From: Verrucomicrobiota bacterium | GTDB taxonomy: Bacteria; Verrucomicrobiota; Verrucomicrobiia; Chthoniobacterales; UBA10450 | Length of the DNA stretch: 64,000 nt | Assembly (NCBI GenBank): GCA_003219175.1 | Contig: QHPU01000044.1 | Coordinates: 1-64,000, forward strand | Direction: 5' to 3' | Position numbers and translations under genes: made by a program | Part shown: positions 13,056 through 52,339 of the stretch, piece after piece | Position numbering within the stretch: the first letter of the stretch is position 1 | How the letters are laid out: the number at the start of each line of letters is the position of its first letter | Notes under the pieces: generated by a model | Told to the model about the DNA's origin: nothing | Databases searched by the model: none | Seen by the model: only the letters and a program-made list of their open reading frames with translations

Positions 13056-13160
13056 TTGTCATCCCGAGCGAAACCGCCAGTCCGACTCGGACCCAGGGAC
13101 CCCGTTGCGGAACCTTTAGGTAACTTCATCAGGATCCCTCGGCTGTCGCTCGGGATGACG
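13056..13160. repeat. TGTCATCCCGAGCG-type inverted repeat
   Basis: TTGTCATCCCGAGCG at 13056-13070 pairs with CGCTCGGGATGACG at 13147-13160, with AGGGACCCC/AGGATCCC motifs inside. The same end sequence recurs at 17261-17395 and, degenerate, at 51565-51668. It fills the gap between two convergent genes. Confidence 0.75.
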
Positions 13161-17260: not shown

Positions 17261-17395
17261 TTGTCATTCCGAATAGAGTGAGGCGGAGTCGATGCTGCAA
17301 CGCAGCCAACGTAGTTGGCGAGGCCAGCTTTCCATCCCGTTGCGTTACGTTAAAGATTTCGCATCGGGATCCCTCCACTGCGCTCGGGATGACAA
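17261..17395. repeat. TGTCATTCCGA-type inverted repeat upstream of acnA
   Basis: TTGTCATTCCGAATAGAGTG at 17261 is matched by CACTGCGCTCGGGATGACAA ending at 17395; CATCGGGATCCCTCC lies inside. It belongs to the family seen at 13056-13160. It occupies the whole space between acnA and the upstream peroxiredoxin gene, so the acnA promoter must lie in or across it. Confidence 0.75.
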
Positions 17396-17911: not shown

Positions 17912-18002
17912 TTCAGTATAAAAGCGACAGTTTCCGGGTCAAAAAGATCGCGAAAACGTTAAATTGCCGATTCACAATTAACAGATCACGCTTGGCCCAC
18001 GA

Positions 18003-18491
18003 ATGGAAGTATTCTGGTGGCTGTTCGCGATCGTGGTAATGGCGCTGGGGTTGATCGGCACCGTCATTCCGATCTTGCCGGGAACGACGATCATATTGGC
18101 GGCAGCGATGGTTCATCGGGTGGCGTTGGGCCCGGATCGAAGCCTTGGCTGGAGTGCCCTCCTTGCGTTGCTTTTGCTGACGCTCTTGACTTACGTGATT
18201 GATGCTGCGGCGGGCTACCTCGGCGCCAAACGTTTCGGCGCAACGAAATGGGGTTTGATTGGCGCCAGCGTTGGCGTGATTGCGGGATTATTCTTTGGTC
18301 TGTTTGGAATTTTTGTTGGGCCGGTAATCGGGGCGATCGCCGGCGAGGTTATTGGCGGGAAAGAGATCGTGAAAGCTGGTCGCGCTGGCTGGGGTACATT
18401 TCTTGGCAGCCTTGCCGGGGTAATCGCAAAGCTTTTCATCGGACTGATCATGATCGTGATTTTTCTGATGAACGTGCCGTCGCCGCTGTAG
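18003..18491 (+). CDS. DUF456 family small membrane protein
   Basis: A 162-aa hydrophobic protein with four or five membrane helices and the glycine-rich repeats typical of DUF456 (GLIGTVIPILPGTTIILAA; GLFFGLFGIFVGPVIGAIAG). It is encoded alone. The stop codon TAG (18489-18491) is the TAG within TGTAGC of a palindromic element that begins at 18487, so the last codons and stop come from the repeat boundary. Function of the family is unknown. Confidence 0.85.
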   Translation: MEVFWWLFAIVVMALGLIGTVIPILPGTTIILAAAMVHRVALGPDRSLGWSALLALLLLTLLTYVIDAAAGYLGAKRFGATKWGLIGASVGVIAGLFFGLFGIFVGPVIGAIAGEVIGGKEIVKAGRAGWGTFLGSLAGVIAKLFIGLIMIVIFLMNVPSPL

Positions 18492-36417: not shown

Positions 36418-36490
36418 AGGTAGGGCGGTTGATCGAACCGATCCGAGCCGGATTGGCGTTCGCGGGCAATTGGGGTCAATCGCCCCCACC
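36418..36490. repeat. Palindromic element at the rsmI 3' end
   Basis: GGTAGGGCGGTTGATCGAAC starts at 36419; GGGCAATTGGGGTCAATCGC ends near 36486. A related sequence in opposite sense (GGGCGATTGAGATCAATTGC) lies upstream of rsmI at 37256-37276. The rsmI stop codon (TGA at 36476-36478) falls inside. Confidence 0.55.
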
Positions 36491-50753: not shown

Positions 50754-51557
50754 TTACTTGGCGTCGATTTTATTTGTCCCGCTGAAACGCCATGCCGCGC
50801 GCAAAACCGCTGATGGTAACGCTCGCACGATCGTCATTACAATTTTGATCGCGATTCCCGGAACCGCCAAAGCCTTATCCCGCTCGATTGCGGACAATCC
50901 TGCGCGGGCCACTTCCTCCACTGAGACATGCACGGGACTACTTCTTATTTTTCGCATCTGCTGTTCGCGATCCGCAACCTGAGCAAACTCGGTGTGCACC
51001 GGCCCCGGACAAAGGGCGGTCACGGTAATTCCGAGCCCGCGTGTTTCGGCCCGAATGGCTTCGGAAAAACTGGTGACGTATGCCTTGGTCGCCGCGTAGA
51101 CAGCGAGGTCTGGCAGTGGAAGGAAGCCAGCCGAGGAACTAACGTTCAAAATCGCGCCACGTTTCTGTGTGATCATGCGTGGAAGGACCGCGCGTGTTAA
51201 GGCCGTTAATGCCAACGCATTTACCTGGATTTGCTCGTTTACACGAGCCGGATCGGCGGTTGTAAACGAACCGTGGTCACCGAGTCCAGCGTTGTTGACC
51301 AGAAAATCGATCGGCTCGTTCGCGAGCCAGCCAGCGACTTGCACTGTTTGTTCAAGATTCGAAAGATCAACTTCGCGAATCTCAACCTGCAGCGCCTCAT
51401 TTACTCGCAGTAATTCGCTTCGCAGTTTTTCGAGACGATTCCGCCTCCTGGCGACGAGAACTAGAAGTCTTGCCCGGCCCGCGAGTTGTCGTGCTAACTC
51501 GCGCCCGATCCCCGCTGAAGCGCCGGTAATGACTGCCGCACAGCCGTCGAGTTTCAT
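50754..51557 (-). CDS. Short-chain dehydrogenase/reductase
   Basis: A 267-aa classical SDR: Rossmann motif ITGASAGIGRELA (GxxxGIG), NNAGLGDHG, catalytic serine in ILNVSSSAGFL and YAATK (YxxxK). The C-terminal hydrophobic stretch around GIAIKIVMTIVRALPSAVL suggests membrane association. Substrate is unknown. Its start overlaps the pseudouridine synthase stop by 4 bp (ATGA), so the two are co-translated. Confidence 0.88.
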   Translation of the reverse strand: MKLDGCAAVITGASAGIGRELARQLAGRARLLVLVARRRNRLEKLRSELLRVNEALQVEIREVDLSNLEQTVQVAGWLANEPIDFLVNNAGLGDHGSFTTADPARVNEQIQVNALALTALTRAVLPRMITQKRGAILNVSSSAGFLPLPDLAVYAATKAYVTSFSEAIRAETRGLGITVTALCPGPVHTEFAQVADREQQMRKIRSSPVHVSVEEVARAGLSAIERDKALAVPGIAIKIVMTIVRALPSAVLRAAWRFSGTNKIDAK

Positions 51558-52339
51558 CGTTTGTTTGTCATTGCCAGCGAGGTCGACCAGTTCCGCGGCG
51601 CGATCTTAAAGCCTCTGCGGCGGGATCTTTCGGTCCGAGCCGGAATGGCGGATTCGCTCGAGATGACATGAATCTCGCGCTTACTTAACAAGCGCCAATG
51701 TCCGCGCGGCAAGTCGCCGAGCCGCAAGTTTCCCATGCGGATTCGCGATAACATTTTCGCGTGGAATCCAAAGCGCTCGAGCATCCGGCGGATCTGTCGA
51801 TTAATCCCTTGCTCGAGGACAATGCGCAGATGCGTTGGCGAAGTTTGCTGCACGCGTTTGGCGCGGGCGCGTTTTCCATCCAGGACCACGCCGCGAAGTA
51901 ATCGCTGTGCCAGGTCCAGATTGGCCGCGCGATCGAGCACCACTTCATATTCCTTTTCGATTTTGAAACGCGGATGCGTCAGACGTTGCGTAAGCTCCCC
52001 GTCATTCGTGAGGAGCAGTAATCCTTCACTCTGGGCATCAAGTCGGCCGACATATGCCAACGAGGAAAATTTGGACGGCAGGAGGTCGTAAACCGTGTCC
52101 GTGATGTGCGGGTCGCGCCGCGTACACACAAGACCACGCGGTTTATTCAGTAAAATGTGAACGGGCGCGCGTTGATAGATCAGTTTCCCGTCGACTTTGA
52201 CGTAATCAGTCGGCCCGGGTTGAAAACGAAAATCAGTGCACGGTTTTCCATTCACCGTCACGCGCCCGCCGGCGATCAACTCATCCGCGCCGCGACGGGA
52301 TGTGATACCAGTGGCGGCGAGGAAACGATTCAGACGCAC
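51554..52339 (-). CDS. Ribosomal small/large subunit pseudouridine synthase (RsuA/RluB family)
   Basis: A 261-aa pseudouridine synthase with an N-terminal S4 RNA-binding domain (MRLNRFLAATGITSRRGADELI) and the catalytic aspartate in YVGRLDAQSEGLLLLTNDG. RluB-like 23S rRNA modification is most likely, but RsuA cannot be excluded. The last ~37 residues (after ISSES, from about 225) are encoded by a TGTCATCCCGAGCG-type repeat (51565-51668) and look like repeat translation rather than protein (arginine-rich ARTERSRRRG). The frame then ends at the ATGA overlap with the SDR gene, which suggests the repeat replaced the original 3' end. Confidence 0.85.
   Translation of the reverse strand: MRLNRFLAATGITSRRGADELIAGGRVTVNGKPCTDFRFQPGPTDYVKVDGKLIYQRAPVHILLNKPRGLVCTRRDPHITDTVYDLLPSKFSSLAYVGRLDAQSEGLLLLTNDGELTQRLTHPRFKIEKEYEVVLDRAANLDLAQRLLRGVVLDGKRARAKRVQQTSPTHLRIVLEQGINRQIRRMLERFGFHAKMLSRIRMGNLRLGDLPRGHWRLLSKREIHVISSESAIPARTERSRRRGFKIAPRNWSTSLAMTNKR
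51565..51668. repeat. TGTCATCCCGAGCG-type element encoding a protein C-terminus
   Basis: TTGTCATTGCCAGCGAGGTC (51565) pairs imperfectly with TCGCTCGAGATGACA ending at 51668. It matches the outer ends of the elements at 13056 and 17261 and forms the 3' part of the pseudouridine synthase gene. Confidence 0.65.

Follow-up and report, generated by a model that had tools for sequence, protein, structure and literature searches.

The last ~37 codons of a pseudouridine synthase gene in a soil Verrucomicrobiota genus (Chthoniobacterales) appear to be a captured palindromic repeat, lodged between the conserved enzyme core and a four-base overlap with the downstream gene. This capture as the synthase C-terminus is supported by the comparison of congeners that carry the repeat at this point with congeners that lack it. 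The gene lies in a stretch of 64,000 nucleotides (hereafter the window), and the genome searched below is the window's own (G000; 3.24 Mb in 166 contigs), with soil Verrucomicrobia and Chthoniobacterales bins as its nearest named relatives. The encoded protein belongs to the RsuA/RluB/RluF family (TIGR00093; 152.4 bits vs. a cut-off of 109.3) and contains both the S4 and the PseudoU_synth_2 Pfam domains. Since its scores lie below the equivalog cut-offs (152 of 318 bits for RluF, 123 of 275 for RsuA, and 116.5 of 290 for RluB), the enzyme is referred to by its family and not by an exact target base. The open reading frames (ORFs) of the synthase and of the short-chain dehydrogenase/reductase (SDR) that follows it share 4 nt, i.e., ATGA on the minus strand (51557–51554; Table 1).

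Table 1. Features of the window discussed in the text.
Feature	Position	Strand	Basis
RsuA/RluB/RluF-type pseudouridine synthase gene, 261 codons	51554..52339	-	ORF; TIGR00093; Pfam S4 + PseudoU_synth_2
Synthase conserved core, residues 1–226	51662..52339	-	NCBIfam model ends; final modelled helix 220–227
Repeat-derived C-terminal tail, residues 227–261	51557..51661	-	pLDDT <50 for 230–261; codon-position differences 4/8/2
ATGA overlap, synthase stop TGA + SDR start ATG	51554..51557	-	sequence; also in repeat-free genomes
SDR gene, downstream of synthase	50754..51557	-	Pfam adh_short 153.5 bits
Repeat A copy 1 (palindrome, decayed), one arm containing B	51566..51668	.	
Repeat A copy 2, with B, well-folded	13058..13159	-	
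Repeat A copy 3, B absent, other insert present	17263..17393	+	
Repeat B (18-nt hairpin), here GTCCGAGCCGGAATGGCG, differing from the consensus at one position	51633..51650	+	genome + window motif counts

The original prediction had held that the core ends near residue 224, that the remaining ~37 residues coincide with a TGTCAT...GATGACA repeat, and that this repeat should be sought elsewhere in the genome, and all three points were borne out. The NCBIfam RsuA/RluB/RluF models stop at residue 226, and the final ~37 codons are covered by an imperfect inverted repeat (repeat A) running from TGTCAT (51566) to GATGACA (ending at 51668), the 15-nt end arms of which are 80% complementary. With the whole element as query, 39 other matches were found in the genome at E ≤ 10 (best, 3e-12), and the end motif GTCATYCCGAGCGAAG yielded 127 matches at ≤2 mismatches vs. 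3 for the reversed control, indicating a dispersed family. Full copies measure 84–86 nt in their simple form and ~102 nt when one arm contains an 18-mer (repeat B, see below), and are longer with other inserts. Intact copies fold far better than shuffled sequences (z of –4.7 for the copy at 13058, and of –8.25 for the L004 copy elsewhere in the genome). Because the synthase copy, unlike these, does not beat its shuffles (z of –0.83), it is regarded as old and decaying.

Comparison of the window genome with ten congeners (G001–G010) revealed the A insert at the same point, in the same orientation, and equally far from the core in G000 and G004–G009, while it is absent from the synthase end in G001, G002, G003, and G010 (i.e., six congeners filled and four empty). 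Relative to G003, the insert adds 99 nt (33 codons), a multiple of three. A conserved extension of the same kind was also looked for in repeat-free relatives; the congeners that have the extension also have the repeat. A MITE of an insertion sequence would be marked by a target-site duplication and by a transposase sharing its terminal repeats; no clear duplication was seen at the synthase insertion, and none was recognizable at the sites examined.

The same comparison bears on the proposal that a new stop codon supplied by the repeat had created the ATGA overlap, and this part of the original prediction has to be abandoned. The repeat-free G003 has the same overlap (AAG CCA TGA / ATGAAG), which is seen in 16 of the 48 family genomes whose synthase gene is followed by the SDR gene. 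Because ATGA also occurs in genomes with short, repeat-free junctions (G003, G038, G044, G061, G064, and G066), the overlap is older than the repeat and was rejected as its product. The window synthase still ends at the ancestral TGA belonging to the ATGA overlap, which the insert left in frame. The junction was nevertheless altered in other carriers, with a 4-nt gap in G004, a 14-nt overlap in G005, G006, G008, and G009, and an early stop in G007, where the synthase frame ends within the repeat, 42 nt ahead of the SDR gene.

The synthase/SDR junction has received other repeats as well. In other genera, the same junction contains single A arms (G012, G050, G057, G058, and G073), a TGTAG...CTACAG pair (G048, G053, G068, and G078), or a TGTAGCC...GGCTACA element (G049, G055, G059, G063, and G079), and a search with the arm in the genome of locus L088 (G213) returned 14 copies vs. 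0 for the control. In 25 of 30 junctions of 60–200 nt, the synthase frame ends between –8 and +24 nt relative to the SDR start. After dinucleotide shuffling, 12.7 ± 2.4 of these junctions were open, with none of 500 shuffles reaching 25, and the other two frames of the same junctions were open in 3 and 7 cases. The count draws on related species, which are not independent. With the junctions merged manually into 12 or 13 types of insert, the excess of open frames gave P values of 0.02 or 0.004, respectively. These data suggest that inserts survive where translational coupling to the SDR gene is kept, i.e., that coupling may be under selection. Such coupling is not universal, because G007 and four other long-junction species (the latter with early stops at other distances from the SDR gene) stop before it.

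We therefore propose that an ancestor of some members of this genus gained a REP-like A element, with B already nested in it, which would have landed past the final structured residue of the synthase and ahead of its ATGA junction with the SDR gene. Because this junction has no spacer, and because the window genome has no earlier stop, a ribosome finishing the core must translate the insert, which would thereby have turned into a disordered tail of ~35 residues for which nothing indicates a role at the protein level. The insert may have been tolerated because the core was complete and the frame remained open to the SDR start, so that translational coupling was preserved; the same constraint would have acted on the other hairpin repeats entering the junction in other genera. 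Taken as a whole, we consider this explanation very probable, with transposition as the route of entry, coupling as the cause of the frames staying open, and dispensability of the tail being the steps that we infer from sequence comparison. The four-base overlap may thus select which insertions survive, namely those that do not close the frame before the next start, and the filled and empty sister species would make this a traceable case in which selfish palindromes, outside Rickettsia, became the ends of proteins.

The tail itself (residues 227–261, which include EIHVISSESAIPAR) looks dispensable. Between G000 and G004, differences at the first, second, and third codon positions number 4, 8, and 2 in the tail vs. 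15, 11, and 45 in the core, so that third-position bias is absent from the tail in this pair, and dN (0.17) exceeds dS (0.08), albeit over few sites. AlphaFold2 gives pLDDT values below 50 for residues 230–261, tail length varies from 21 to 41 residues across carriers, with frame changes between them, and other genera have unrelated tails. Purifying selection on the tail is thus not visible in these comparisons, and codon-position pattern, predicted disorder, and variability together led us to reject a conserved functional extension. That the tail is nonetheless maintained by protein-level selection is very improbable, even though an arginine-rich ARTERSRRR stretch recurs in several carriers and could bind RNA, and even though the tail is apparently still translated in seven species (with only 21 residues in G007). 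Somewhat less improbable, yet still unlikely, is that the hairpin was kept for an effect in the intercistronic mRNA, on stability or on SDR translation, with the tail as a by-product. Different hairpin repeats do recur at the junction, REPs located 3′ of genes are thought to function as RNA elements (PMC3733652), and some junctions fold clearly better than mononucleotide shuffles (z of –4.7 in G007 and –5.5 in G063). However, the fold of the window copy is unremarkable, as are those of G008 (–0.6) and G009 (0.0), and many species are free of any insert.

A more serious alternative, although we also regard it as rather unlikely, is that the junction is an insertion hotspot at which G000/G004 and G005–G009 acquired the same type of element in two separate events, with G003 never having been filled. 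In the synthase and SDR tree, the carriers are grouped with support of 98/97, but the empty G003 lies inside this group, among the G005–G009 carriers, and a single carrier clade is marginally rejected (p-AU of 0.046). Because of this position of G003, one loss or a second insertion is required, and a clean single-insertion tree had to be discarded. Moreover, G000 and G004 have a right flank (AACAAACG or TAAAACG) before the ATG that is lacking in G005–G009, filling of a second gene (encoding RNase HII, see below) is patchy between the sister species G008 and G009, and the same junction took up other repeats in other genera. On the other hand, distance from the core, orientation, and the arm containing B are the same in all carriers, and the inserts can be aligned throughout. 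One insertion followed by one loss is an equally short history, and the G003 synthase gene (L041) is itself damaged by a ~68-nt frameshifting deletion. Together with an in-frame TAG in the core of the G004 synthase gene (L032), this deletion means that some bins may carry broken genes or assembly errors.

Capture of repeat A by a coding sequence evidently recurs in the window genome, since besides the synthase gene it involves the RNase HII gene and a MeaB-type gene. The C-terminus of RNase HII, encoded on the same contig (C154:82745-83503; L003:1415-2176), consists of the same composite of A and B, which reads ASPARTE instead of AIPARTE, and its stop is the repeat's own TGA. This site is also filled in G006, G008, and G003, whereas the protein ends in AQPLLALEGII in G002, G005, and G009. 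The B12-binding/MeaB-type protein (L008:355-1506) ends in SSRAKSRDPDA, which derives from a related copy of A.

Repeat B, the 18-mer nested in A, has the consensus GTCCGAGCCGGACTGGCG, i.e., GTCCG-AGC-CGGAC plus TGGCG. At ≤2 mismatches, 163 copies were found in the window genome vs. 1 for the control, mostly outside A, and the window contains three (51633–51650, 13075–13092, and 36441–36458) vs. 0.19 expected. Some copies stand by themselves, others are nested in palindromes, and others again lie in frame within genes, among them queA and aguA. Specifically, queA has a 21-nt B insert in G000 that is missing from eight congeners, and aguA has a B insert (net 18 nt) in G000 and G008 but not in G005, with a further B copy in its C-terminus. 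Since its length is divisible by three and none of the six frames of its consensus contains a stop codon, B could insert into genes as six or seven residues. In an S9 peptidase gene (orthologues L287–L290), B adjoins a repeat of GTAG type in G000, the corresponding position in G010 is taken by another pair of repeats, and the other compared genomes are empty; this peptidase loop thus appears to be a shared permissive site for unrelated in-frame repeats.

B occurs across the family and also in a second family of the same order (f5; L180–L184 in G086, G110, and G144), where it lies within each arm of a long palindrome that ends near CTAGTGTCC...GGACACTAG. The inverted B pairs of f5, 120–170 nt apart, had raised the idea that B is a REPIN end; because B is located inside both arms of this longer palindrome, it is nested rather than terminal, and the idea was dropped. 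The outer pair of the B hairpin is G-C in 55 and A-T in 3 of 63 copies, and this covariation was set aside as evidence, being too rare and partly due to shared ancestry. Cyanobacterial small dispersed repeats (work of Elhai and colleagues from 2008) are reportedly ~21–27 nt long and form precise inserts, also within other repeats. As set beside these by description, B is likewise short, dispersed, and nested, although it differs in phylum and sequence. We tentatively suggest, at somewhat less than even confidence, that B is a micro-element of 18–21 nt in Chthoniobacterales with a mobility of its own, entering genes both directly and via larger palindromes. If so, larger palindromes would carry it onward into more genes, such as those for the synthase and RNase HII, and its in-frame entry into enzymes would be informative about the movement of the smallest bacterial repeats.

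The capture in itself is a case of a published phenomenon, that of intragenic REP and RPE palindromes, and what is new is the reuse of one coupled junction and the nested 18-nt unit. Intragenic REPs with CGTC or GTAG tags are short palindromes, often in inverted pairs, that lie at gene ends or inside ORFs and are translated (Di Nocera et al. 2013, PMC3733652). The same study reported REPs in tRNA pseudouridine synthase genes, REPs that provide stop codons, and, for the verrucomicrobium Opitutus terrae, repeats with the GTAG tag; it did not report CGTC repeats from Verrucomicrobia, and neither a nested B nor recurrent insertion at one coupled junction is described there. The CGTC tag varies between CGTC and TGTC (PMC3733652), and the A arms similarly start with C/TGTC and then AT, with 26 of 31 A ends reading TGTC or CGTC before AT. 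CGTC REPs are mostly inverted dimers without a dedicated transposase, and inverted pairs of A arms were seen. The stem differs: CGTC REPs have 8–9 bp and a 4–5 nt loop, whereas the A arm ATYCCGAGCGAAGTCGAGGRAT has 5 bp (ATYCC/GGRAT) with ~12 nt between.

RPEs (Ogata et al. 2000, 2002) are characterized, in the passages on them in PMC3733652 and PMC6649704, as ~100-nt palindromes located in frame in protein genes and decaying over time, and RPE-4 and RPE-6 are CGTC repeats (PMC3733652). Repeat A resembles them, by description, in being a palindrome translated in frame at the ends of the synthase and RNase HII; it differs from them in belonging to another phylum and in that the A cases seen lie at gene ends, not in gene interiors. 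In the REPIN/RAYT system, inverted REP pairs form hairpins and constitute the mobile unit (Bertels and Rainey 2011, PMC3116915). The window genome likewise has Y1_Tnp matches and inverted pairs that form hairpins, but A and B lack the GTAG tag. No A or B pair flanks any of the ten Y1_Tnp matches at a distance of up to 1.5 kb, and isolated A or B motifs lie near two or three Y1_Tnp genes. A RAYT was therefore rejected as the mover of A or B.

Finally, the searches brought up two further repeats of the window genome. A B variant (ATCCGAGCCGGATTGGCG) lies within another palindromic repeat with GGGCGATTG-type arms, in the 36441 region of the window and at L242:7806-7884. Another dispersed repeat, of ~133 nt, is present at L242:13590-13729 and 17938-18070 (G000:C138) and has matches on both strands in G004, G005, and G008.
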